64,000 nt of DNA from Flavobacterium sp. CBA20B-1 (GTDB taxonomy: Bacteria; Bacteroidota; Bacteroidia; Flavobacteriales; Flavobacteriaceae): the NCBI RefSeq assembly GCF_028473145.1, contig NZ_CP092370.1:2542001-2606000 (forward strand). Direction: 5' to 3'. Shown piece by piece: positions 1,000 to 46,217 of the stretch. The number at the start of each line of letters is the position of its first letter. The first letter of the stretch is position 1. Under the pieces are notes generated by a model. The model saw nothing but the letters and a program-made list of their open reading frames with translations, did not search any database and was not told the origin of the DNA. Made by a program: the position numbers and the translations under genes.

Positions 1000-1450
1000 G
1001 AAAAAGCTGCTTGCCATAGCGTGGAACGTACTCATCTTAGTTTTTTGTTTAATAAATTTATCAAACATTAATGAAGTTCAAAAAATACGCATTCCACATT
1101 TAGATAAAGTAGTGCATTTTGTTTTTTACACCACTTCGTCTTTCTTATGGTCATGGGCTTTGCTCAACAAAAAATCATCGGCATATCCATTGAATCGTTT
1201 GCTAATAGTTTTAGGATTGATTTTATTTGGGTTGATGATTGAATTTCTGCAAGATGTATTGCCCACTCATCGTTCGTTTGAATGGTTAGATGTGCTTTGC
1301 AACACCGCAGGCGTTTTATTTGGAACCACCATTTATTGGATTTATACAAGATGGAAAGAAGCTGTCCGAAAAGTCGGACAGCTTTTTTTTGTTGTATTTT
1401 TTCTCCAAAATAATTATCTTAGAGTTGCACAAAAAACCAACAATGGCTAA
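992..1450 (+). CDS. VanZ-like membrane protein, 3' end altered by IS insertion
   Basis: The ORF overlaps the gcvH stop; GTG at 992 is the likelier start (TTG at 989 is possible). It has three to four hydrophobic segments and the family motif [11 protein letters not shown], followed by EFLQ and a short [15 protein letters not shown] stretch. These fit the VanZ-like fold found next to gcvH in flavobacteria; its function there is unknown. The native sequence ends near residue 122 at the IS left end (position 1357). The last 31 codons, including a run of aromatic residues, are read from the IS and overlap the transposase start by 8 bases. The conserved part looks complete, so the protein may still work with a foreign tail. 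Confidence 0.8.
1359..1390 (+). terminator. IS left-end hairpin, terminator-like
   Basis: The 11-bp perfect stem AAGCTGTCCGA pairs with TCGGACAGCTT around an AAAG loop and is followed by eight T. The terminal inverted repeat therefore doubles as an intrinsic terminator that would stop transcription entering the IS from gcvH. The same structure is present in copy 2. Confidence 0.75.
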
Positions 1451-3113
1451 GGTAGTTTTTAAAAATCAAACAGGCAATAGTCCTGAACTTTTTCCGATTA
1501 ATATTTTTGATAAAATCCCTAATAATCACCCTGTTCGATTAATCGAAGAGGTTGTTAACTCGTTGGATATTAGCAATATAATTAAGTTGTACAAAGGAGG
1601 TGGTACCTCTGCATATCATCCAAGAATGATGATTAAAGTGTTGTTTTACAGCTATTTGTCAAACGTTTATTCTTGCCGAAAAATAGCTAAAGCACTCACC
1701 GAAAACATCTATTTCATGTACATTTCGGGCAACTCTACGCCTGATTTCCGAACCATTAACGACTTTCGAGGGAAAATATTAAAAAATCATATTCAACAAC
1801 TATTTGCCGAAGTAGTGAAAATGCTGGTTGAAATGGGCTATGTAAGTCTTGATATTCAGTACATTGATGGAACAAAAATCGAAGCCAAATCGAATCGTTA
1901 TACTTTTGTTTGGAGAGGTTCGATTGAAAAATACAAGGAAAAATTAGAAGTTAAAATCAACACGATTCTTTCAGATATCGAAAGTGCTATTCAGTCTGAT
2001 AATCAAGAAATTAACAAAGAAGAATTACCTAAAAGCATCAATTCGGAAGAACTTCGGGAGAAGCTATCGATCTTGAATAAAAAGCTGAAAGAACCCACTA
2101 AAAAACAGGCAAAAGAGCTACAAAAACTTCAGGATGAGCATCTTCCAAAATTAGAAAAATACGAAAAAGACCTAGAAACTTTAGGCGATAGGAATTCTTA
2201 CAGCAAAACCGACCCTGACGCTACTTTTATGCGGATGAAGGAAGATCACATGAAAAACGGACAGCTTAAACCGGCTTATAATACGCAGATTTCAACTGAA
2301 AATCAGTTTATTACCCACGTTTCCATCCATCAAAAACCGGGGGATACCACGACTTTGGAATCGCATCTTGATGGTTTTGAAAATCTCTATGGAAAACAAA
2401 GCAAAGATGTGGTTGCCGATGCAGGTTATGGAAGCGAAGAAAATTACGAAATGCTTGAAAATAAAAGCATTAAAGCCTACGTGAAGTACAATTATTTTCA
2501 CAAAGAAGCGAAACGGACGATGAAAAATAATCCGTTTTTGGTTCAGAATTTATTCTACAACAAAGAACAAGATTTTTACGTTTGTCCGATGGGTCAACGA
2601 ATGGAAAATGTTGGCAAAGGAAAACGAATTTCGAGCAACGGACACGAATCGCAAGTGTCTTATTATCAGGCAAAAAACTGTAATAATTGTCCGCTTCGAG
2701 AGCAATGCTTCAATGCAAAAGGTAATCGCAGAATAGAAGTCAATCACCGGTTGAATGAGCTTAAAGAAAAGGCTCGAAATTTATTAACGAGCGAGAAAGG
2801 GCTGGAACATCGCAGTAAACGCCCTATAGAAGTAGAGGCTGTTTTTGGGCAACTCAAGCACAATAATGATTTTAATAGATTTACATTCAAAGGCTTAGAG
2901 AAAGTAGAATTAGAATTTCTACTGATGGCTCTTGGACATAATTTTAGAAAAATGGTGGCTGTAGCAGTTGCGGGAAGAAAAACGGTATTCAAACGCCGTA
3001 TTTTTGGTTCTAAACTTGTCATTTTTGTCGAATTTAGATGCTATCAGCGGTCTTTATTTCAAAAAAAGCAAGAAATTAACTTTAGTGATGATGTTGAAAA
3101 GTTAGTAGTATAA
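1443..3113 (+). CDS. IS1182-family DDE transposase, copy 1
   Basis: This transposase has 556 residues from the ATG of MAKVVFKNQ. Residues about 15-110 match the InsH-type N-terminal domain (HPRMMIKVLFYSY, TPDFRTINDFR). The catalytic region has the acidic triad of DDE enzymes: Asp in IQYIDGTKIEAKSN, Asp in VVADAGYGSEENYE and Glu in RPIEVEAVFGQLKHN. A charged coiled coil (about 190-270) leads into SYSKTDPDATFMRMKED, typical of the family. A four-Cys patch (CPMGQ, CNNCPLREQC) precedes the last acidic residue. A weak promoter with TTG then TATCTTAG lies just upstream inside the IS. It appears intact. Confidence 0.95.
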   Translation: MAKVVFKNQTGNSPELFPINIFDKIPNNHPVRLIEEVVNSLDISNIIKLYKGGGTSAYHPRMMIKVLFYSYLSNVYSCRKIAKALTENIYFMYISGNSTPDFRTINDFRGKILKNHIQQLFAEVVKMLVEMGYVSLDIQYIDGTKIEAKSNRYTFVWRGSIEKYKEKLEVKINTILSDIESAIQSDNQEINKEELPKSINSEELREKLSILNKKLKEPTKKQAKELQKLQDEHLPKLEKYEKDLETLGDRNSYSKTDPDATFMRMKEDHMKNGQLKPAYNTQISTENQFITHVSIHQKPGDTTTLESHLDGFENLYGKQSKDVVADAGYGSEENYEMLENKSIKAYVKYNYFHKEAKRTMKNNPFLVQNLFYNKEQDFYVCPMGQRMENVGKGKRISSNGHESQVSYYQAKNCNNCPLREQCFNAKGNRRIEVNHRLNELKEKARNLLTSEKGLEHRSKRPIEVEAVFGQLKHNNDFNRFTFKGLEKVELEFLLMALGHNFRKMVAVAVAGRKTVFKRRIFGSKLVIFVEFRCYQRSLFQKKQEINFSDDVEKLVV

Positions 3114-6588: not shown

Positions 6589-6936
6589 ATGGGAGCACAC
6601 GCATCAAATACAAAAAGAATTTGGCAAGTATTCATTTACTTATCAATCCTTACAATAGTAGAAGTTGTTTTGGGTATTTATAAACCCGATGCATTATTTC
6701 ACAACAGTTTATTAAATTTAAGCTACTTAAACTGGATTTTCATCATTTTAACCATTGTAAAAGCGTACTATATCATGTGGGCGTTCATGCACTTAGAAGG
6801 TGAAAAATCATCATTCCGCTGGTCAATCGTTGCACCAATGGTTTTCTTAATTGCTTATTTGGCATGTTTGCTATTGATAGAAGGCGATTATATCCACGAT
6901 GTTTTTAAAACTTCTTCCATGAGATGGATGTTTTAA
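6589..6936 (+). CDS. Cytochrome oxidase subunit IV family protein
   Basis: This 115-residue protein has three transmembrane helices and the motif KAYYIMWAFMHLEGEKSSFRW, diagnostic for the prokaryotic COX4/CyoD-like small oxidase subunit. It probably stabilises the oxidase complex in the inner membrane. It is the last gene before a strong terminator and the Rhs island. Confidence 0.92.
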   Translation: MGAHASNTKRIWQVFIYLSILTIVEVVLGIYKPDALFHNSLLNLSYLNWIFIILTIVKAYYIMWAFMHLEGEKSSFRWSIVAPMVFLIAYLACLLLIEGDYIHDVFKTSSMRWMF

Positions 6937-6954
6937 TCTATAAAATTAAAAGAT

Positions 6955-6990
6955 AAAAAAGCGGTTTCAGTAATTTGAAACCGCTTTTTT
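6955..6990 (+). terminator. Terminator of the oxidase cluster
   Basis: AAAAAAGCGGTTTCA pairs with TTGAAACCGCTTTTTT around a short loop, followed by T. It marks the left border of the Rhs island, whose first Rhs-derived bases begin about 5 bases later. Confidence 0.88.
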
Positions 6991-6994
6991 ATTG

Positions 6995-7226
6995 GAGTTA
7001 TAATGACGCCACCCAAATGTATTATTACGGCGCACGTTATGGAGTTTATGCTGAGCGCAGTCGAAGTAACCCAAGAAGTAGTATATTTGTAAGTGTGGAT
7101 TTTTTGCGGAAGACTGTGCAAACGGAATTATGTTACCAGTACGAACATATGGACTATGATGGTGAGGATTTGCTATCCGTAGCTCCAATTAGCATTGCTA
7201 AAAAGTTAATTTCAAAAATCAATTAA
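6995..7226 (+). pseudogene. Decayed Rhs core fragment
   Basis: The translation contains NDATQMYYYGARY and SSIFVSVD, identical or nearly so to the core of the two Rhs genes downstream (DDATQMYYYGARYYDP, ISIFVSVDP). Homology begins abruptly at about 6995, just past the oxidase terminator. The core is split by a 24-base net insertion at about 7041-7067 and degrades after SVD, where bases are lost and the frame shifts. It has no start context and no recognisable toxin domain, so it is a remnant of an Rhs module. The lipoprotein gene that follows would be its surviving partner. Confidence 0.8.
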
Positions 7227-7234
7227 ATACTGAA

Positions 7235-7825
7235 ATGACAAAGATATTTTTTTTGATCAGTTTTCTATTGCTTGCTACTAATTGCAATAAACAAAATGAA
7301 GATTTATCGAAGGTACAAGATAAATATATCATGAGTTATGAAAGTTGGAATTTACAAACTGATTCTCAAATAAAGCGCGATTCCGTTTTGTTTTATATAG
7401 ATAAATTGATAAATATTAGTGAAGATGATTTTTATAAAATAGAAAAAATAAAATTTTTATGTCGAATAGATAAACATAACGATGCTCTATTAGTCATTAA
7501 AACATTAAAAGAGCAAGATTCATTTGCGATTGAATTATTTAGAAGTCTTGTAGAAATCAAAGGATATTCAAACAGAGCAGATTTTGGATTAAAGAATGTT
7601 TATGATAAATATGAAGGGAAAAAGTTAACAATAGAAGAAAATTTTTATAAAATAGCTTTAGATTATTATTTTAAAGGAGGAAATTATGCACTTAATGAAA
7701 TTAATACTATAATTGAAAGAGATGTGTTGTCATTGTCAAATAAACAACTTTACCAATTACTTAAACAAAAAATACAGGAAGAAGAGGATGGTTTAGAAGT
7801 ATTATTTTATCTATACAATCTTTAA
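7235..7825 (+). CDS. Orphan lipoprotein, putative immunity protein
   Basis: This 196-residue protein has an N-terminal hydrophobic segment ending in LLATNC, a loose lipobox with Cys17, then a soluble, very AT-rich and mostly helical domain with TPR-like spacing (about 60-100). I recognise no family. It starts 8 bases after the Rhs remnant and is followed by an Rhs-island hairpin repeat. The two intact Rhs genes here are each followed by a lipoprotein gene in the same way, so an immunity role against a lost Rhs toxin is inferred, not shown. Confidence 0.6.
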   Translation: MTKIFFLISFLLLATNCNKQNEDLSKVQDKYIMSYESWNLQTDSQIKRDSVLFYIDKLINISEDDFYKIEKIKFLCRIDKHNDALLVIKTLKEQDSFAIELFRSLVEIKGYSNRADFGLKNVYDKYEGKKLTIEENFYKIALDYYFKGGNYALNEINTIIERDVLSLSNKQLYQLLKQKIQEEEDGLEVLFYLYNL

Positions 7826-7849
7826 TTTACGGTAATGTAGGTGGTACAG

Positions 7850-7896
7850 ACCCGATGGCGCGGATTTGCAATCCGTGCCTATAAAAACCAACAGCC
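7850..7896 (+). repeat. REP-like hairpin repeat, copy a
   Basis: The core (7858-7878) is stem GCGCGGATT paired with AATCCGTGC around loop TGC, preceded by CCCGATG and followed by CTATAAAAACCAACAGCC. The last bases are the beginning of the repeated terminator seen intact in later copies; here it is truncated and replaced by another hairpin (ACCGCACGAA pairing with TTCGTGTGGT). Confidence 0.8.
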
Positions 7897-8116
7897 CTCG
7901 CTACCGCACGAATCTTTCGTGTGGTGGTAACTAAAAAAAAGCGCACGCGCAGATTTAAAGTTGCAAATCCGAGTGTTAACTAAATAAAAGTGAGGTGTGT
8001 CAACAAAGTATAAATTAACAGACCTTAATAGTGCATATTTTATAACAACAACAGTAAAATTTTATAGATAAAGTCACGGATTACAAATCCGCGACATCGG
8101 GTGAAAAAAGAAAGAG
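7897..8116 (+). other. Intermodule spacer with degenerate hairpin repeats
   Basis: There is no gene here. It holds the ACCGCACGAA/TTCGTGTGGT hairpin, a degenerate repeat near 7940-7975 (CAGATTTAAAGTTGCAAATC) and, at 8073-8095, the repeat in reverse orientation (GTCACGGATT and AATCCGCGAC around ACA) followed by ATCGGGT. The segment TAGATAAAGTCACGGATT recurs near 38975. Confidence 0.65.
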
Positions 8117-8725
8117 ATGAAAAAAATGGCAACTATATTAGTTTTTACGTCCTTATTCCTAATATTTGGATGTAAAAACGACAAATTAAGATTTGTACAA
8201 AAAAAATATACAGAAGACTCTTTAATATCCGAAGGGTACATGTTAGATACCCTACCAGTTGGATATTGGAAATCTTTTGATTTGCAAAAAAATCTTGTTG
8301 CTATTAGTGAATTTAAACTTATAAATAACCAAGTGTATTTGAATCAGGAAATAGTCTTTAATAAGCAAGGAGATACACTATATAATAAATCTAATTTTTT
8401 TACTTTTAAAGTTAAAACAGTCGATAAAGATAGTTTAATCGTAGAAATAAAATATGAGGGAGTAGTTGATGCCATATATAATGATGCCGAATCATACCCA
8501 ATGTTAGTTTATAACAATAGCATAAATGTTGATTTTAGTAATCTAAATAAACTAAAGTTGGATACTCTTATTTTTCATGACAACAAACTTCAGATACGCC
8601 TCCATAAAAACAGTGGGATAAGGGGAGTAATAAATGAAATGATGTTTTTGGAAAAGGGGATGGAGATAAGAAAAATATATATTGATTTTAATGATGAATA
8701 TCAGGATATTTCTGAGATTAGATAA
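8117..8725 (+). CDS. Orphan lipoprotein, putative immunity protein
   Basis: This 202-residue protein has a signal peptide with lipobox LIFGC (Cys19). The mature part contains GYWKSFDLQKNLVAISEF, resembling the G-x-W...F-D...G-x-L spacing of MORN-like/YwqK repeats, but only one or two units are convincing. The rest is beta-rich. There is no toxin gene directly upstream; it is bracketed by the island hairpin repeats on both sides (8073 and 8778). It is best read as an immunity gene that has lost its toxin. The function is inferred from context. Confidence 0.58.
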   Translation: MKKMATILVFTSLFLIFGCKNDKLRFVQKKYTEDSLISEGYMLDTLPVGYWKSFDLQKNLVAISEFKLINNQVYLNQEIVFNKQGDTLYNKSNFFTFKVKTVDKDSLIVEIKYEGVVDAIYNDAESYPMLVYNNSINVDFSNLNKLKLDTLIFHDNKLQIRLHKNSGIRGVINEMMFLEKGMEIRKIYIDFNDEYQDISEIR

Positions 8726-8770
8726 CCACCCGCTGCGCAAAGATTTTGTGTTAAAAACCTAAGACACTAC

Positions 8771-8850
8771 CCCGATGGCGCGGATTTGCAATCCGTGCTT
8801 TTAAAAACACAACAGCCTCTTTACACACGTATTGAGGCTGTTTTGTTATA
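8771..8850 (+). repeat. REP-like hairpin copy c plus repeated terminator T1
   Basis: The 9-3-9 hairpin GCGCGGATT/AATCCGTGC (8778-8798) is followed by a terminator (8811-8845) in which AACAGCCTC pairs with GAGGCTGTT and ends in TTTTG. The same pair of elements recurs at 11214, 13502 and 13782. The bases after T1 (TATAAAACACTTACTGCTG) recur after T3 at 13568. Confidence 0.82.
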
Positions 8851-8912
8851 AAACACTTACTGCTGTTGCACATTTAATAGTTTCGACTTTTATAAGGACG
8901 CAGTAAGTTATT

Positions 8913-10586
8913 GTGTTTTATGTTGGTAAAGTACAAACTCCCACCGCATCAGTAACCCATTGTATCGATGCAATCAACGAAATCATCAATAATTCGGCTA
9001 CAAGCTGTGAAGCATTAATTGCGGTAAACCAATATGTGTGTACACCGATTGATGAAAACAATCCGGGCAATGTTCCTGTAGATCCAACAGATCCAACATT
9101 AACACCCGGGCAACAGCAGCAGGCAGACTGTTTAACCGACTTGAATATTTTGGTAGCACAATTGGCTGTGCAGATTCAAAATGGGGAAGGATCGGCATTT
9201 TTTGAATGGTATCAGTGTATCAATGTATGCATAGAAAGAAACGATATAATTGATAGTTATGGCTGTTGGGAACGTTTTATACATGGCGATGGGGAATGGC
9301 CTTCAAATTGTAATATAGTTTTTGAACAATGCGGTTGCGAGGAACAACCTATCATCGGTGAAATTGATCTCTGTCCTGTATTGGCAATGATTTATATAGA
9401 CAACCACCTGCTACCTGATTTAAGCAATGCCTGTGAGGTGTTAAATTATGTGGAAGAAACCTATAAATGTGTACCTTTACCATCAGAACCAATTGACGAA
9501 CCTATCACACCAGAGGATGAAGACGACGATTGGGTTGATGGCGGCGGAAACACCGAGGATCCTGGAGAAGATTATGATGAAGAATTACGCAAACCAATTT
9601 GGTGGTACCATACCGACCATTTAGGCAGCAGTACATACCTGACAGACAACTTTGGACGCCCAAGTCATTATTACGAAACATTACCGTTTGGGGAGATGAT
9701 GGTAGAACACAACCAAAGTGCCAACCACCCGTCTGGTGTGGGTTACGACAACAAATGGAAATTTAATGGTAAAGAGTTAGACGACGCCACACAAATGTAT
9801 TATTACGGGGCACGTTATTACGACCCAAGAATTAGTATATTTGTATCTGTAGACCCACTGGCGGAGCAAACCATGACGCCTTATCAGTATGTAACCAATA
9901 ATCCTATTATGTTTACAGATCCTACGGGGATGACTGCAGAACCAGTATATGATGTAGAAGGAAATCATTTAGGGAATACTAAAGAAGGTTTTACAGGAGA
10001 TATAATTATTTACAATGGAGATAAAGACAAAAGCTTCTTTGAAAATATGACAGCAGAAGAGTTTATGAATCATGATGAAACTGTAAATGATGTTTTTTTA
10101 TTAGATAATGTTTCATCTGAAATTTCTGGAAAAGCAAAGTCTAAAATTTGGAATCATATTGTTTCCGCTCAAGATGGGAATTCATTTTTCGGAACGGAAT
10201 TTAAAATGAATAATATAATAGGTGGGATTCAGTATCAAGCTAGTTCAGATTTTGGTTGGATGACAGAATATACATTGAACGGTAATATTGGAAAAATATA
10301 TGGATCAGGAGAATATAGTTATGAAAGTACAGTAGAAAATATTCAATCATCTGTTATAATTCATGAATATATAACTCATATGCAGTACAAATTAGGTGAT
10401 GGCAGTAAAAGTCATAGAATGTCATATTGGTATGTGATGAATTCTGGTAAATTATGGAACTCAACTACTCAAAAGTACAAAGAATTTAATTGGCGCCAAT
10501 ACAATATATATAAAAACCAAGAGGTAAATGAAGGAAAAAGACCAAAACCTATTCCTCTCTATAATAGTGTATTTAAACTTTTTTAA
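8913..10586 (+). CDS. Orphan Rhs protein with HExxxH metallopeptidase-like tail
   Basis: The frame opens right after a stop at 8904-8906; GTG 8913 is the only plausible start and has no visible start signal, so this may be an untranslated Rhs 3' module. It has up to 557 residues. Residues 1-190 form a Cys-rich, poorly known region; 226-340 are the Rhs-repeat-associated core (YHTDHLGSSTYLTD, YYYGARYYDP, DPTGM). The tail (341-557) has VIIHEYITH (His484, Glu485, His489) and a later SHRMSYWYV, a layout seen in other Bacteroidota Rhs tails, suggesting a metal-binding effector domain. The tail is far more AT-rich than the core. A lipoprotein gene starts one base after the stop. Confidence 0.82.
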   Translation: MFYVGKVQTPTASVTHCIDAINEIINNSATSCEALIAVNQYVCTPIDENNPGNVPVDPTDPTLTPGQQQQADCLTDLNILVAQLAVQIQNGEGSAFFEWYQCINVCIERNDIIDSYGCWERFIHGDGEWPSNCNIVFEQCGCEEQPIIGEIDLCPVLAMIYIDNHLLPDLSNACEVLNYVEETYKCVPLPSEPIDEPITPEDEDDDWVDGGGNTEDPGEDYDEELRKPIWWYHTDHLGSSTYLTDNFGRPSHYYETLPFGEMMVEHNQSANHPSGVGYDNKWKFNGKELDDATQMYYYGARYYDPRISIFVSVDPLAEQTMTPYQYVTNNPIMFTDPTGMTAEPVYDVEGNHLGNTKEGFTGDIIIYNGDKDKSFFENMTAEEFMNHDETVNDVFLLDNVSSEISGKAKSKIWNHIVSAQDGNSFFGTEFKMNNIIGGIQYQASSDFGWMTEYTLNGNIGKIYGSGEYSYESTVENIQSSVIIHEYITHMQYKLGDGSKSHRMSYWYVMNSGKLWNSTTQKYKEFNWRQYNIYKNQEVNEGKRPKPIPLYNSVFKLF

Positions 10587-10587
10587 T

Positions 10588-11148
10588 ATGAAAAGAATAT
10601 TCCCTATATTATTTTTTTTTAGTATTTTCTGTAATTGTAATAAAGAATTACAGATTAATAAAGATGATATTATTGTTACTCATAATCTTACAGTGAATGA
10701 TTCTGTTTCGAATTTACCAAAAGAATTAGATTCAATAAATATTTCTTTTAGTATAAATAAATTTGAAGAATTTATTTTGCATATTGATAAAACAGATTAT
10801 ATTTTACATGATTTGAATAATAGTAAATGGTATAATGTAAATGTAATGAAAGATTCATTAGATAAATATATCCCTGATTTATTTATTTATGAAAAGATTA
10901 AACCTATAATTACAATATCTCAAAGTGATTACATAAGAAGTGAAAAATATAGTAGAATGGGTGTTTATAAATATTTTAATAATCAACCAAATATTCATTA
11001 TGAGATTTCTGTAAAAGGTGAAAATGTTAATGTTGAGTTTAGCCGAGAGTTTATTCAATTTAATAGTCTATTATTTTTTATTAGTAAATCTCCTTCAGAT
11101 ATAGAAAACCGATTAGATATTTTAAAAAGGTTTAAAAAGAATAGATAA
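10588..11148 (+). CDS. Putative immunity lipoprotein of the first Rhs module
   Basis: The gene starts one base after the Rhs stop, so it is almost certainly co-translated. It has 186 residues. The signal MKRIFPILFFFSIF is followed by a lipobox Cys at 15 or 17. The mature domain is beta-rich, AT-rich and unlike any family I know. Tight linkage to a variable Rhs tail is the standard toxin/immunity arrangement; a membrane-anchored periplasmic lipoprotein would neutralise a toxin acting in the periplasm. Role inferred. Confidence 0.68.
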   Translation: MKRIFPILFFFSIFCNCNKELQINKDDIIVTHNLTVNDSVSNLPKELDSINISFSINKFEEFILHIDKTDYILHDLNNSKWYNVNVMKDSLDKYIPDLFIYEKIKPIITISQSDYIRSEKYSRMGVYKYFNNQPNIHYEISVKGENVNVEFSREFIQFNSLLFFISKSPSDIENRLDILKRFKKNR

Positions 11149-11154
11149 GTTTAA

Positions 11155-11284
11155 CCCGATCGCGCGGATTTAACTTCGTTCCGTTCGGCTAAAGCCTCGG
11201 GTGTAACCCGATGGCGCGGATTTGTAATCCGTGCCTATAAAAACCAACAGCCTCATTACACATGTATTGAGGCTGTTTTGTTTT
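11155..11284 (+). repeat. REP-like hairpin copy d plus terminator T2
   Basis: A half repeat (11155-11175) and a CTTCGTTCCGTTCGGCTAAA insert precede a full hairpin at 11214-11234 (stem GCGCGGATT/AATCCGTGC, loop TGT). Terminator T2 follows at 11246-11282 (AACAGCCTC pairing with GAGGCTGTT). The following AAAGTTTGTGGTAAAAGC recurs after T4 at 13896. Confidence 0.8.
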
Positions 11285-11292
11285 AAAAGTTT

Positions 11293-12798
11293 GTGGTAAA
11301 AGCAAAACGCCAGGCTGGTAAAGAATGCGGCTGTATTAGAGACGAAGAAGAAGAAATGCAGATTTGTGCCGAAGATTGCGCAAATCCACAAGCAAGCGAA
11401 TGTTATGAATATTATGCTCAAACCGGTGTTTGGATGGACGGTTGCGAGCAAATAATGATAGATTGTGGTTGTTTGGAAGACGATGGTTCTAATAATGAGT
11501 TAGACTGTTTTCAACAAGCGTTAAACTACATACGGGTAAACCTAACGTTTGAGCCAAACAATGCCTGTGCGGTATTAGATTATGTGCTTACAAATTTCAA
11601 TTGTTCACCAAAAGAAACTGTAAGGCCAGATACGCCAGAGTTTTTCCCTGATTTGGATTTGCCAACACCCCATCCGGAAAGTAACGATGATTTACCTGGC
11701 GAAGATGGACCATACCGCGAAGAAGAACGCAAGCCAATTTGGTGGTACCATACCGACCATTTAGGCAGTAGTACATACCTAACAGACAACTTTGGACGCC
11801 CGAGCCATTACTACGAAACACTGCCGTTTGGGGAGATGATTGTGGAGCATAACCAAAGTGCCAACCACCCGTCTGGTGTGGGCTACGACAACAAGTTTAA
11901 GTTCAACGGAAAAGAATTAGACGATGCCACACAAATGTATTATTACGGCGCACGTTATTATGACCCAAGAATTAGTATATTTGTAAGTGTGGATCCGCTG
12001 GCGGAAGACTTTGTAGGTTGGACACCATATCATTACGTACATAACAATCCAATAAATTTAATTGACCCAACTGGTATGAGTGCTGTATACGGAGAAGGTG
12101 GCCCGAAAAATAGAGATGGTTACTCATTCGTAAATTATAAACCGGGGAGTGATATAGGAACAATGGCTGTAATCCCAAGTAACTATAACTCTGATTCTGC
12201 ATTTTCTATGGATTATAATAATGCTAAACAATCAGGTACACCTATTATGTTGGTTGATGATATTTCAGGTTTCTCTAAAGGACTATCACAATTAAAAACA
12301 GATGGTTCTGATGTTGGAACATTTGCCTTGACTTCTCACGGAAATTCTGGTTCTTTTAGTATTGGCAGTACTAAAGTAAATAATAAGAATAGTTCTTCAA
12401 CTTTAAGTGCCTTAGGTGATAAGTTAAGTGGAAAAAATTTAGTTGTTTTAGCATGTAATACTGGCAGAGGGGATGAAGGAGCTGAACTAACTCAAAGTAT
12501 GTCCAAGCAGTTAGATGCTAGGGTAATAACTTCTCAGCATTTATTGATCGGCGGGTATAGATTTAATGGAGGTGAGAATATGTTGAAAAGTTTAAATCCT
12601 AAAGATAGTGAGACAATGAATAGTTTTACAGTGTCCGCACGGGGTCAACAATCGAGAACTGTTTTTAACTTGTCTATGAATAAAAATGATAAAAGTCCAA
12701 GTTACAGTAGGAGTGATACGAATAGAACTTTTAAGAATAGTTATCGAGCTGTGAAAAAAGGATTTAATTTAGGTAGTCAAAATAATTTTATAAGATGA
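11293..12798 (+). CDS. Orphan Rhs protein with caspase/CHAT-like tail
   Basis: The frame opens after a stop at 11284-11286; GTG 11293 is the first start codon. It has 501 residues. Residues 1-110 are Cys-rich with the same Cys pattern as the first module (CGC, DCF, NACAVLDYV). The Rhs core spans 146-262 and ends in DPTGM. The tail (263-501) contains TFALTSHGNSGSF (His349) and, 39 residues later, LVVLACNTGRGDEGAEL (Cys388). A His-Gly then a Cys at the end of a hydrophobic strand is the dyad layout of clan CD (caspase, CHAT, C80) peptidases, so a protease effector is likely. The stop overlaps the next gene by 4 bases. Confidence 0.83.
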   Translation: MVKAKRQAGKECGCIRDEEEEMQICAEDCANPQASECYEYYAQTGVWMDGCEQIMIDCGCLEDDGSNNELDCFQQALNYIRVNLTFEPNNACAVLDYVLTNFNCSPKETVRPDTPEFFPDLDLPTPHPESNDDLPGEDGPYREEERKPIWWYHTDHLGSSTYLTDNFGRPSHYYETLPFGEMIVEHNQSANHPSGVGYDNKFKFNGKELDDATQMYYYGARYYDPRISIFVSVDPLAEDFVGWTPYHYVHNNPINLIDPTGMSAVYGEGGPKNRDGYSFVNYKPGSDIGTMAVIPSNYNSDSAFSMDYNNAKQSGTPIMLVDDISGFSKGLSQLKTDGSDVGTFALTSHGNSGSFSIGSTKVNNKNSSSTLSALGDKLSGKNLVVLACNTGRGDEGAELTQSMSKQLDARVITSQHLLIGGYRFNGGENMLKSLNPKDSETMNSFTVSARGQQSRTVFNLSMNKNDKSPSYSRSDTNRTFKNSYRAVKKGFNLGSQNNFIR

Positions 12799-13457
12799 TA
12801 AAATATATGCTTCGTTATTTTTTTATATTATTTTTATTTAGTTGTGCTAATCAGCTAAATGATTTAAAGACATTTGAGTATAAAAGTATGCAAATGTCAA
12901 AACCTAAAATAATTTTAGACAAAACTGCTTGGGTTGAACCAATTACTTTAAATAGTAATAACATTATTATTAATGCAATATTGGATGGAAAAAAAACAAA
13001 GCGGGTTTTTGAAAAAAAGGATGATTATTGGTATTCTGAACTTAATTATAGACATAATCCCGTCAAAGGGACTGGTCATGAATTATATGAAGTTTATCAA
13101 AAGTACTATATTTATTCAGAATATATAATAAAGGAATTTAGAGATTCAAATGGATCAGAAAAAGTTATTTATCTTGATTTACTGAAAAATGAAATTTATT
13201 ATTTCAGAAATTTTAATAAAAATACTTTTGATTTAAAATTAGCATTGTTAGGAGATTATAAAAAAAATTTTTTTTTTATAAAAGGTGAAGAACTATACAA
13301 AAAGCAAATTAGTTTTAGTAAAGGCATTAGTACCGGTGAATCTGTTGAAGTGGTTTATGGATATTCAGGAGAAGATATTTTTTTTATTTTTGATTTAGAT
13401 GAATATAAAATAGGTGATAATTCTTCAGGTTATATGGAAATATTTAGTAATAAATAA
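12795..13457 (+). CDS. Putative immunity lipoprotein of the second Rhs module
   Basis: The ATGA overlap with the Rhs stop implies translational coupling. It has 220 residues, with lipobox LFLFSC (Cys17) after a short signal. The mature part is rich in Lys, Tyr, Phe and Asn and predicted mostly beta; no known family. Placement directly behind the caspase-like tail makes it the natural inhibitor of that effector. Role inferred from position; lipoprotein nature is read from sequence. Confidence 0.68.
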   Translation: MIKYMLRYFFILFLFSCANQLNDLKTFEYKSMQMSKPKIILDKTAWVEPITLNSNNIIINAILDGKKTKRVFEKKDDYWYSELNYRHNPVKGTGHELYEVYQKYYIYSEYIIKEFRDSNGSEKVIYLDLLKNEIYYFRNFNKNTFDLKLALLGDYKKNFFFIKGEELYKKQISFSKGISTGESVEVVYGYSGEDIFFIFDLDEYKIGDNSSGYMEIFSNK

Positions 13458-13460
13458 GCC

Positions 13461-13570
13461 ACACGCTGGCGCGGGCATCTTGCCCGTGCAATAACCCGAT
13501 GGCGCGGATTTGCAATCCGTGCTTTTAAAACCAACAGCCTCTTTACACACGTATTGAGGCTGTTTTAGTA
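13461..13570 (+). repeat. Two REP-like hairpins (e, f) plus terminator T3
   Basis: Copy e at 13469-13489 has stem GCGCGGGCA paired with TGCCCGTGC around TCT. Copy f at 13502-13522 has GCGCGGATT/AATCCGTGC around TGC. They have identical geometry but different paired bases in the inner stem. Terminator T3 follows at 13533-13567. Confidence 0.8.
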
Positions 13571-13895
13571 TAAAACACTTTACTGCTGTTGCACATAAAA
13601 TAGTTTGTTTTATAGTTGCAACGCATTAGAAAGCGTTTGTTTAAGTTTAAAATGATACACCGTATTGTTTATAAAATATTCATTTTAGGGTTAAACCATT
13701 TTTTAATGATTTATTAGTTAAGAATTAAGGGGCAGTCCGTTTTAGCCTGACCCCAATCGCTCGGATTTGTAATCCCCGATCGCGCGGATTTGCAATCCGT
13801 GCCTATAAAAACCCGCTGCGCAAAGTCTCACGATTTTGAGCAACATTAAAAACCAACAGCCTCTTTACACACGTATTGAGGCTGTTTTGTTATAA
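13571..13895 (+). other. Island tail: repeat remnants, hairpins and terminator T4
   Basis: There is no gene. The first 60 bases repeat the sequence after T1 (TATAAAACACTT, ACTGCTGTTGCACA). A half repeat lies at 13759-13775, a full hairpin at 13782-13802 and terminator T4 at 13854-13890. CCCGCTGCGCAAAG near 13811 also occurs near 8730. It appears to be the remains of one or two further modules. Confidence 0.65.
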
Positions 13896-13970
13896 AAGTT
13901 TGTGGTAAAAGCAAAACCCCCACTACCAGTTGTTTCTTATCAAAATTTAAAATATCTATCATCAAAATAG
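13896..13970 (+). pseudogene. Stub of a third Rhs module
   Basis: After T4 the frame KFVVKAKPPLPVVSYQNL matches the opening KFVVKAKRQ of the second Rhs gene base for base over about 20 bases, then ends in TAG at 13968-13970. Only the first few codons of a module survive. Confidence 0.55.
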
Positions 13971-14015
13971 GTTTTTGCGAACATTTGTTGGTTTTTAAAC
14001 TATAAATAAGCGTTA

Positions 14016-14047
14016 AAAAGGCGGTAATTACACCGTCTTTTTTTATT
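14016..14047 (+). terminator. Terminator at the right border of the island
   Basis: GGCGGT pairs with ACCGTC (one G-T pair) and is followed by seven T. It separates the island from the oxidase assembly genes. Confidence 0.65.
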
Positions 14048-14051
14048 TTTG
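14044..14051 (+). promoter_or_regulatory. -7 box for the oxidase assembly genes
   Basis: TATTTTTG fits TAnnTTTG, 15 bases before ATG 14066 and overlapping the T-run of the border terminator. The assembly genes thus seem to have their own promoter despite separation from the oxidase genes. Confidence 0.5.
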
Positions 14052-14065
14052 TAAAAATTTTCACC

Positions 14066-14728
14066 ATGAAAAAATTACTGCTCTTGGTAGCACTTTTTAT
14101 AGTACCCATTGTTGCATATTTGTTTTTTGCATCGGGTGTAAATTCTTTTATAAAACTACCTGTTGTCACCGAAAAAATTGCAGAACTTCCTTCAAACTGG
14201 CAACCTCTTTCGGAAAATCCTGTGCAACTAAAAAATAAAATCACCATTTTGGGTTTTCCCGGAACCGATATAAAATATGTGGAAGGCAATATCACCAATT
14301 TAGCCCATAAAATTTATGACCGCAATAAAGATTTTGTAGATTTTCAGGTGGTTATGATTGCTCCAAAAGGCACTGAGGAAGGCATTAACAAGTTGAACCA
14401 GCAATTAGGCGTAAACATTGATCTAAAAAATTGGTACTATGTGATGGCAGATGCCAACGAAATCGAGCAATACCACAAACAATTGGGTTTGGTGGGTGGT
14501 TTAGATGATAAATACGGAACCTCGAACGTTTATATTATCGATAAAGAATTGAACTTACGCGGACGAAAAGGCAAAAACAAAAAAGGTGAAGAAGAGTATC
14601 GCGAAGGATACAACACCATTTCGGCAGCCGACTTGCACAATGAAATGGCAGACGATGTAAAGGTGATTTTAGCTGAATACCGCTTAGCCTTAAAGAAAAA
14701 TAATAGAATTGATAACGTAACCAATTAA
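14066..14728 (+). CDS. Membrane-anchored thioredoxin-like protein next to SCO
   Basis: This 220-residue protein has one N-terminal membrane anchor (about 4-24) and a periplasmic domain containing ITILGFPGTDI and VYIIDKELNLRGRK, strands that match a thioredoxin-like/SCO-like fold. It lacks the CxxxC copper site. It regularly accompanies SCO genes in flavobacteria. It sits 2 bases before the SCO gene and probably assists oxidase assembly, but no biochemical role is established. Confidence 0.7.
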   Translation: MKKLLLLVALFIVPIVAYLFFASGVNSFIKLPVVTEKIAELPSNWQPLSENPVQLKNKITILGFPGTDIKYVEGNITNLAHKIYDRNKDFVDFQVVMIAPKGTEEGINKLNQQLGVNIDLKNWYYVMADANEIEQYHKQLGLVGGLDDKYGTSNVYIIDKELNLRGRKGKNKKGEEEYREGYNTISAADLHNEMADDVKVILAEYRLALKKNNRIDNVTN

Positions 14729-40935: not shown

Positions 40936-42455
<1,520 letters not shown>

Positions 42456-42523
42456 AGAGATGGTTTAAACATCTTTTACTCTTTAACTGTTGGTTCAAAA
42501 AAAAAGCAGAATAAAAAATACAG

Positions 42524-42597
42524 AGTCTCGTAGCTCAGCTGGTTAGAGTACTACACTGATAATGTAGGGGTCGGCAGTTCGAGTCTGCCCGGGACTA
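42524..42597 (+). tRNA. tRNA-Ile (GAT)
   Basis: This 74-base cloverleaf has acceptor AGTCTCG/CGGGACT, D arm GCTC...GAGT, anticodon loop CTGATAA with anticodon GAT and a T arm with TTCGAGT. CCA is not encoded. It is the usual first spacer tRNA of the operon. Confidence 0.95.
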
Positions 42598-42727
42598 CTT
42601 TTTGCAGTCGAAAGTCAAAAGTTCGAAAGTCAAAAGATCTGTACACTATTTATTCACAAGGAAATTCTAGAAGTTAAGAATCCACAATTCGTAATTCGTA
42701 ATTAACAGATTCGTAATTAGAAAAATT

Positions 42728-42801
42728 GGGGGATTAGCTCAGCTGGCTAGAACGTCCCGCTACAGGCGGGAAGGTGAAGGGTTCGACTCCCTTATTCTCC
42801 A
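42728..42801 (+). tRNA. tRNA-Ala-like spacer tRNA with ACA anticodon
   Basis: This 74-base cloverleaf has acceptor GGGGGAT/ATTCTCC with the G3:U70 pair that specifies alanine, then discriminator A. The T arm is AAGGG-TTCGACT-CCCTT. The anticodon arm is TCCCG-CTACAGG-CGGGA, giving anticodon ACA instead of the expected TGC. The D stem has a C-A mismatch (GCTC/GAAC). Spacer position fits tRNA-Ala. It may be a pseudo-tRNA, a remodelled gene or a sequence error. Confidence 0.7.
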
Positions 42802-42871
42802 CGATTCAACGATTAATCGTTGATTTGTTTAAGCGGTTAACCGATAACACGGTTTAACAATTAAACAAAAA

Positions 42872-42889
42872 AAGTTCATTGACATATTG
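42872..42889 (+). promoter_or_regulatory. boxA-like motif before 23S
   Basis: AAGTTCATTGACATATTG is a second copy of the motif found before 16S. Confidence 0.6.
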
Positions 42890-43023
42890 AGATACATTTA
42901 AAAAGTAGAAAAGATATTAGAAATAATATAAAGCACATTTTTTGGGTCATAAATTTTTTTAAAGTATCAAGTTTAACTTGAAACCTTAAAAAAAGAAACA
43001 TGAAACAAAAAAAATAGAGCACA

Positions 43024-45901
<2,878 letters not shown>

Positions 45902-46100
45902 TGTGCTCTGGAAGTTGCTTTGTAAAGAATAGTATTAAGATTTTAGTATTAAGTATTAAGACTGGAATATCTACAAAAAAAAGTATCGAAAATATGTTAA
46001 CAATATTAGCCCGCCATTGGCGTGGCGTTTAAAGTTCAAAGTTTAATGTTCAAGGTTAAGACCTAAAACAAAAAAAACTTTTAACCTTAAACAAAAATTT

Positions 46101-46209
<109 letters not shown>

Positions 46210-46217
46210 TTTTTAAG

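Follow-up and report, generated by a model that had tools for sequence, protein, structure and literature searches.

Between the cox IV gene and the SCO-side genes of Flavobacterium sp. CBA20B-1, a Paenimyroides-like genome, lies an orphan Rhs array of about 7 kb. It bears on the question of why bacteria retain toxin tips that they cannot deliver. The window, to which all coordinates refer, is a stretch of 64,000 nucleotides (positions 2,542,001 to 2,606,000 of NZ_CP092370.1). The flanking genes, named here by inspection, are presumably cox, SCO, nuoA, accC, ferritin-like, queG and ruvB.

The island and its insertion site

By comparing cox IV loci we found the cox IV/SCO-side joint empty, with a gap of 68–86 bp, and the cox-SCO neighbourhood contiguous in 29 of the 31 non-self loci compared (61 cox IV loci were found, 31 of these outside the comparison; L061 repeats L032 of P. 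viscosum and was counted once among the empty-site loci). In the sister species P. aestuarii, an island with the same ends and largely different contents occupies the same joint. Judged from these alignments, the island is real and is inserted. The preliminary description had placed an insertion between the oxidase halves and had looked to relatives for empty sites and for other tails, and the 29 loci and P. aestuarii bear it out on each point. The island edges lie near 6945 and 14006. The heptamer CTATAAA stands at both edges and occurs once in the empty site, and may be a target-site duplication or a chance microhomology. At the right-hand end, positions 13927–14099, which include 93 bp of flank, are 96.5% identical to P. 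aestuarii.

The same description held that one gene cluster had been split. However, the empty sites contain a hairpin fold in all 29 cases and, in 28, the promoter-like motif TANNTTTG; an operon was therefore probably not split by the insertion. Across the window TANNTTTG is not enriched (109 matches against 107 expected), so that its weight lies in its conserved place in the empty sites. The features of the island are as follows, with the strand in brackets.

6938..6944 (no strand): CTATAAA, left island edge; recurs at 14000-14006, single copy in empty site
6953..6992 (+): island-borne terminator-like hairpin, left end; 17-nt arms, 100% complementary; also in P. aestuarii
6995..7148 (+): degraded Rhs core remnant, mid-core start, broken frame; tblastn with P. 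baculatum C-terminus, E 1.6e-10
7235..7825 (+): lip7235, orphan lipoprotein-like (immunity-type) gene, 196 aa; no intact toxin in cis
7858..7878 (+): REP palindrome
7997..8053 (+): 5' stub of an IS200-like (Y1/RAYT-type) transposase gene; 19 residues, 79% to P. aestuarii L200:3448-3999
8074..8094 (-): REP palindrome, inverted, 2 mismatches
8117..8725 (+): orphan gene with a lipoprotein-like product of 202 aa; toxin gene absent in cis
8771..9932 (+): conserved block 1 (REP, hairpin spacer, pre-core and rhsA core)
8812..8841 (+): hairpin/terminator-like spacer, copy 1; REP at 8778-8798
8913..10586 (+): rhsA, orphan Rhs ORF, 557 aa; TIGR03696
10588..11148 (+): small gene behind rhsA, immunity-type, lipoprotein-like product of 186 aa; internal ATG taken as start
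11247..11276 (+): hairpin/terminator-like spacer, copy 2; REP at 11214-11234
11293..12798 (+): rhsB, orphan Rhs ORF, 501 aa; TIGR03696, tail DUF4347
12795..13457 (+): small gene behind rhsB, immunity-type, lipoprotein-like product of 220 aa
13534..13563 (+): hairpin/terminator-like spacer, copy 3; REP at 13502-13522
13856..13885 (+): hairpin/terminator-like spacer, copy 4; REP at 13782-13802
13927..14006 (+): right island end common to P. aestuarii, closing with CTATAAA (14000-14006)

Modules and their exchange with P. aestuarii

Both orphan Rhs genes of the preliminary description are present, each with one Rhs_assc_core match (TIGR03696; E 1.3e-22 in rhsA and 8.7e-22 in rhsB), and the core repeat within the island spans 287 nt at 89% identity. 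Homology of rhsA to the P. aquimaris protein begins at about residue 3110 of a 3686-residue reading, the N-terminal delivery part being absent. The rhsA tail (about residues 342–557) recurs in five other proteins with HExxxH and SHR invariant, and the rhsB tail matches DUF4347 (PF14252, E 1.4e-10). As candidate motifs, HExxxH would presumably mark a metal enzyme and the His/Cys pair of the rhsB tail (DUF4347) a caspase-like one. Models of the two tails reached pLDDT values of 52.8 (rhsA) and 38.2 (rhsB) and neither was used; the rhsA tail model had no match in the PDB at E ≤ 0.001, and PADLOC gave none for six island proteins.

A small gene follows each intact Rhs gene within the four bases first reported: after a 1-nt gap behind rhsA, with 10588 chosen as an internal ATG (the earliest in-frame ATG is at 10528), and with a 4-nt overlap of the rhsB end at 12795. 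All four short island genes encode an N-terminal hydrophobic stretch and a cysteine. Their designation as lipoproteins suits genes 8117 (IFGC) and 12795 (LFSC), which have ordinary-looking lipoboxes, better than genes 7235 (ATNC) and 10588 (SIFC/FCNC), where this region is atypical. The small proteins are putative neutralisers of the adjacent tails. Two Rhs remnants had also been claimed; the left one stands and is matched at the DNA level as well (6995-7118), whereas the second, if the stretch near 13900 is meant, gave no tblastn match and is spacer sequence, which also forms the first codons of rhsB. No match to TTG-N18-24-TANNTTTG, a promoter consensus, was found on the plus strand of 6901–14070, which counts against the explanation we favour below. 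Since a terminator-like hairpin moreover precedes both rhs ORFs, the toxins and small genes have no demonstrated promoter.

The best-preserved modules consist of a conserved block (REP, hairpin spacer, pre-core and core) followed by a variable cassette of tail and small gene; several others are truncated. Conserved block 1 is 90–93% identical to two P. aestuarii modules and the homology ends at the core end. Aligned in pairs, rhsA, rhsB, three modules of P. aestuarii and the P. baculatum gene end (six sequences) gave 15 alignments, 13 of which stop +1 to +24 nt from that point. Part of one P. aestuarii island module occurs in another array of our own genome, L064 (91% over 1.2 kb), and a second P. 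aestuarii island gene in L062 (94% over 0.7 kb); P. aestuarii also carries a tandem module duplicate at 99% identity. With the site empty in most other loci and different tails at it in P. aestuarii, exchangeable Rhs tail/immunity cassettes in an inserted island are supported.

The modules were described at the outset as separated by a repeated terminator and hairpins, and four spacer copies, each with a REP, are indeed found in the island. Genome-wide the hairpin spacer has 18 sites, 16 of them inside four array loci (one row of the spacer listing is a single palindromic site read twice). A comparison of 15 loci gave 43 copies with at most 5 mismatches. The spacer also lies between modules of a second Rhs core family, 33–45% identical to the first. 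We considered a fixed 5' cut inside the Rhs frame, in which the constant letters after the hairpin would be Rhs codons; the same letters occur at non-Rhs sites and hence belong to the spacer. Positions 7850–8102, with their REP pair and 19-residue transposase stub, are a candidate decayed REP/transposase/inverted-REP element. The relative of the stub in P. aestuarii, a 184-aa ORF at L200:3448-3999, matches PF01797 (Y1_Tnp) at 4.6e-9 and has a REP on each side.

A reciprocal inversion of about 1 Mb, with an array site at either end, distinguishes this genome from P. aestuarii: our joints coxI-accC and nuoA-ferritin correspond to coxI-ferritin and nuoA-accC there. The arrays at the inversion ends lie in opposite orientation. 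At nuoA-accC in P. aestuarii the spacer, REPs and lipoprotein-type genes are present, but the searches detected no Rhs core, which again counts against the favoured explanation. A second inversion was considered, because the right end of our array B matches P. aestuarii array c over 0.4 kb (93.7%), but the sequence beyond differs. At our site L065 the right flank alone matched P. aestuarii.

The lip7235 protein is 96% identical in P. aestuarii, and neither species has an intact toxin in cis. This pair differs at 8 of 107 synonymous and 8 of 481 nonsynonymous sites (Fisher p 0.0033), and six other shared gene pairs agree in having fewer nonsynonymous than synonymous changes per site, all on small counts and with an eighth pair (omega 0.54) outside the seven tested for significance. 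Since one of these seven pairs is a piece of toxin tail (omega 0.31, p 0.0019), purifying selection extends beyond the genes of immunity type. Among 397 family genomes sampled, a set from which P. aestuarii was evidently absent, the 396 others gave no relative of lip7235.

The search for a full-length Rhs gene

The genome searched (3.04 Mb, 3 contigs, 99.94% complete) has nine TIGR03696 places, all in frames of 90–559 aa. Thus the earlier statement that no full-length Rhs gene is nearby holds and extends to the whole genome, in which the longest core-bearing frame is 559 aa. A search with the front 2,833 aa of the full-length P. baculatum gene found nothing in this genome at E ≤ 0.001, while the partner encoded upstream of that gene gave only weak partial matches. 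The full-length gene is kept in P. baculatum, P. aquimaris and Avrilella dinanensis; its product is SpvB/TcB-TcC-like, of about 3,700 aa, and adjoins a T9SS-sorted partner. In P. baculatum the intact gene heads an array of modules. No array in our genome is headed by an intact rhs gene, and no acceptor of the same core family was found in P. aestuarii either. As to the ancestral place of the full-length gene, the proteins that flank it in P. aquimaris and A. dinanensis had no match in the loci compared, except for Rhs pieces and a transposase-like ORF.

Retention of the array and its relation to known systems

We think it probable, taking the explanation as a whole, that the island is an array of orphan toxin-tip/immunity modules, shuffled without a full-length gene and kept as an immunity bank. 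It would have entered the cox IV-SCO intergenic gap in an ancestor that this strain shares with P. aestuarii. The genome has at least four array loci in all, and no full-length gene of the family was found in it. Recombination between conserved sequences, probably homologous, would duplicate modules, exchange cassettes within and between arrays, and have joined array loci to give the inversion. The present benefit would most likely be protection against Rhs toxins of relatives by a putative immunity bank, the toxin tips being silent or nearly so. A wider form, in which the REP/hairpin spacer is the right-hand recombination arm, pairs of the two distant Rhs families are exchangeable and a self-sufficient genome-wide network rebuilds the immunity repertoire and chromosome order without a full-length gene, we offer tentatively.

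The comparisons that follow draw on those parts of the cited papers that were available to us (among them PMC3482391, PMC3150448 and PMC2935791). The preliminary description saw in the array a reservoir of tails for an expressed Rhs gene elsewhere, as Poole et al. propose for Rhs/CDI orphans, and the array behind the P. baculatum gene fits such a role. That reading fails here, because every core lies in a frame of at most 559 aa and the delivery part has no match; with no acceptor of this core family found in either sister genome, it is very improbable. A decaying relic, in which leftovers of a lost full-length gene are shuffled by repeat recombination without present benefit, is unlikely but a more serious rival: the left Rhs remnant is degraded, modules are truncated, and neither promoter match nor full-length gene was found. 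Yet two open toxin/immunity-type pairs persist, and the seven shared gene pairs favour synonymous change.

Orphan modules in Salmonella are reported to act as toxin-antitoxin-like units inside the cell. The adjacent or overlapping toxin and small-gene ORFs would suit this, but the lipoprotein-like partners suggest the envelope rather than the cytoplasm and no promoter was matched, making it improbable here. Least probable is a recombinase-driven acquired defence array (rAID), described in Bacteroidales as co-oriented short low-GC genes with conserved intergenic sequence (PMC12247911). Our array resembles these in its co-oriented short immunity-type genes (20–27% GC against 36% in the cox flank) and in the presence of a conserved intergenic sequence (hairpin spacer and REP); however, no tyrosine recombinase family was found in 34 ORFs of at least 75 aa from the four own arrays, where the mobile-element Pfam matches were Y1_Tnp and rve with one member each, and toxin tails are kept. 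One defining feature is thus lacking.

Known orphan Rhs/CDI modules (Jackson 2009, Poole 2011) share with the island the tandem order of core fragment, variable tail and 3' immunity gene, and the exchange of tails at the core end. There, on the accounts available, they lie downstream of an intact gene, whereas here they occupy several unlinked sites with no intact family gene found and one repeat spacer common to two core families. Gilliamella apicola likewise has orphan toxin domains only, possibly defensive according to its authors (PMC8125069), but belongs to another phylum and has T6SS effectors rather than the SpvB/TcB-TcC-like protein and T9SS-sorted neighbour of our relatives; repeat spacers and an inversion are not described in the available portions of that paper. 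Vibrio cholerae T6SS immunity arrays (PMC5361080) also keep old immunity genes after effector displacement and recombine without specific integration sites, in that case in the 3' region of T6SS clusters.

Jackson et al. (2009) discounted Rhs loci as rearrangement sites, and the sole supporting report we found attributes a translocation in laboratory isolates of Citrobacter rodentium to recombination between rhs elements (PMC3072379). Array loci at both ends of an inversion between sister species bear on this issue. In the Rhs/CDI literature available to us, arrays stand behind a live gene able to use them. In the present pair of sister species, orphan modules are retained and reshuffled and no acceptor of the family was found, which makes an immunity bank separable from a toxin reservoir, and the two could thereby be tested against each other in competition assays.

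Modular structure of the island

Sequence analysis bore out the preliminary description of the pair of orphan Rhs ORFs, the genes close downstream of them, the repeats and the split cox neighbourhood; of the two Rhs remnants it also proposed, one was supported and the second was not. The names given to flanking genes are provisional, assigned by eye. The features needed here are, in window coordinates:

about 6945 to 14006, island of ~7 kb between cox IV and the SCO-side redox genes
7235-7825, lip7235, a lipoprotein-like gene
7858-8094, REP pair with a transposase stub, between two orphan lipoprotein-like genes
8913-10586, rhsA, orphan Rhs ORF
11293-12798, rhsB, orphan Rhs ORF

The window (G000:C1:2542001-2606000) comes from a 3.04 Mb genome in three contigs, 99.94% complete. 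It also holds a complete rRNA operon (16S, two tRNAs, 23S, 5S; 40936-46211) and, upstream of the cox genes, an IS1182-family transposase gene (1290-3113; NF033551 match, 460 bits) flanked by VanZ-like and deoC-like genes, both named by eye.

The best-preserved modules consist of a conserved block (REP, hairpin spacer, pre-core and core) followed by a variable cassette (a tail and a small immunity-type gene). Of the genomes searched, P. aestuarii is the closest relative (cox IV 100% identical). Against two of its modules, rhsA is 90–93% identical from the REP (8771) to the end of the core, where the match ends. Pairwise comparison of six sequences gave 15 alignments, which are not independent: 13 end 1–24 nt past the core end, one pairs the copies of a recent tandem duplication (99%), and the rhsA/rhsB pair is the sole one ending short of it, by 67–73 nt. 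GC content, 36% in the cox flank, is 42–43% in the Rhs core parts, 29–34% in the tails and 20–27% for the small genes. The rhsA tail recurs in five other proteins (42–46% identity in alignment) with differing upstream regions and an invariant His-Glu-xxx-His; for the rhsB tail a single close relative was found. From the family, we infer that the tails would be toxic.

The hairpin spacer occurs at 18 sites in the CBA20B-1 genome, 16 of them within four array loci, and lies also between modules of a second Rhs core family that is 33–45% identical to the first. A slightly wider pattern gave 20 sites in P. aestuarii and two each in P. viscosum and P. baculatum; P. aquimaris, Avrilella dinanensis and a further genus genome (G215) had none. 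REP likewise has 18 sites, of which three arrays hold 13; the second-family array of CBA20B-1 has none.

The insertion site and its cargo

Sixty-one genus genomes carry cox IV, and loci were fetched from 30. Excluding CBA20B-1 itself, 28 of 29 cox IV sites in this set were empty, the occupied one being that of P. aestuarii; the P. baculatum site is likewise empty. In P. aquimaris the gap (L216, reverse strand 585-1647) holds two other genes, of 177 and 183 aa, with no match to the Rhs core, spacer or REP of the island; therefore the cox IV-redox gap accepts more than one kind of insert. Overall, 29 of 31 non-self sites are empty, with gaps of 68–86 bp. Because a hairpin can be folded in all 29 empty sites and TANNTTTG is present in 28 of them, the cox IV and SCO-side halves were probably separate units before insertion. 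CTATAAA occurs once in the empty site and once at each island edge, the left-edge copy of P. aestuarii differing by one base.

The two occupied sites have both ends and the lip7235 block in common: identity is 83% at the left end (0.2 kb, counting the cox flank), 91% in the lip7235 block (1.07 kb) and 96.5% at the right end (0.17 kb, also counting flank). The remaining P. aestuarii cargo differs: it comprises a 294-residue Rhs frame that carries a different tail, two lipoprotein-like genes, and two further genes coding for 128 and 248 aa. The block containing these last two is mostly present in the CBA20B-1 array that follows coxI (91% over 1.2 kb), and the 248-aa gene has a counterpart in its nuoA-ferritin array (94% over 0.7 kb).

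Arrays at the ends of an inversion

CBA20B-1 has the orders coxI-array-accC (1.473–1.480 Mb) and nuoA-array-ferritin (2.461–2.468 Mb), and P. aestuarii has coxI-array-ferritin (0.358–0.369 Mb) and nuoA-array-accC (1.413–1.420 Mb). In both genomes the coxI-side and nuoA-side arrays are in opposite orientation, and the exchanged, inverted segment measures 0.98 and 1.04 Mb, respectively. At the nuoA-accC site of P. aestuarii there are spacer and REP copies, lipoprotein-type genes and an ORF for a transposase; a search there for an Rhs core found none. Rhs sequence is present at the coxI site in four species with a different right-hand neighbourhood in each: accC in CBA20B-1, ferritin in P. aestuarii, queG-ruvB in P. 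viscosum and, oppositely oriented, the ruvB-queG block in P. aquimaris. Array B of CBA20B-1 (right end of L063) and array c of P. aestuarii (L198) have in common a 0.4-kb right-end segment, carrying a CDGSH-type gene (named by eye), and then diverge, which hints at a further rearrangement.

Full-length Rhs genes and selection on shared genes

No full-length Rhs gene was identified in CBA20B-1; the Rhs_assc_core profile (TIGR03696) gave nine matches in CBA20B-1, eight above cut-off, all in frames of 90–559 aa. An array follows the 3,666-aa Rhs gene of P. baculatum, whose product contains SpvB and TcdB-mid domains and matches Tc and Rhs proteins in the PDB. The front part of this gene (2,833 aa) matches fully in P. 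aquimaris and A. dinanensis, only weakly in P. aestuarii (31 bits, inside a gene of a third Rhs family) and not in CBA20B-1 or the P. viscosum draft. The P. aquimaris copy of the upstream partner gene has a T9SS sorting domain. This gene matched strongly in P. aquimaris, P. baculatum and A. dinanensis; in CBA20B-1, P. aestuarii and P. viscosum its matches were only weak and partial. Across the genus, 96 of 249 genomes have this Rhs core at E <= 1e-12, and several have a frame of >3,200 aa as well as short ones, as in G215 (one of 3,550 aa plus six of 205–365 aa).

Earlier papers describe orphan Rhs/CDI modules, their suggested reservoir role and displacement (Jackson 2009, Poole 2011), genomes with an orphan-only Rhs repertoire (PMC8125069), defence arrays with conserved spacers (PMC12247911) and one Rhs-mediated translocation (PMC3072379). 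Our literature search did not find the combination of a repeat spacer common to two Rhs families with an array-bounded inversion, without the family acceptor gene.

In both CBA20B-1 and P. aestuarii, lip7235 stands without an intact toxin in cis. Between them it has 8 synonymous changes in 107 sites and 8 nonsynonymous in 481 (omega 0.21, Fisher p 0.0033). Over the seven shared pairs tested omega was 0.09–0.43 (p from 0.018 to 1e-12), compared with 0–0.02 for cox flank genes and 0.06 for the redox gene. All seven pairs are under purifying selection, as judged from small counts, which does not in itself prove function. One pair is a toxin-tail piece (omega 0.31), and the selection signal is therefore wider than immunity-type genes. 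The lip7235 gene is rare, found only as itself among 397 family genomes sampled. The protein database contains 13 relatives, one from Myroides odoratus.

A third Rhs locus comprises, in P. aestuarii, a gene of 2,132 aa and, downstream of it, one of 152 aa. The CBA20B-1 counterpart (L202, 1505000-1524900, reverse strand) retains only short Rhs pieces, together with the downstream gene in two versions (77% and 47% identical). This arrangement is in keeping with the proposed role of the arrays as an immunity bank.
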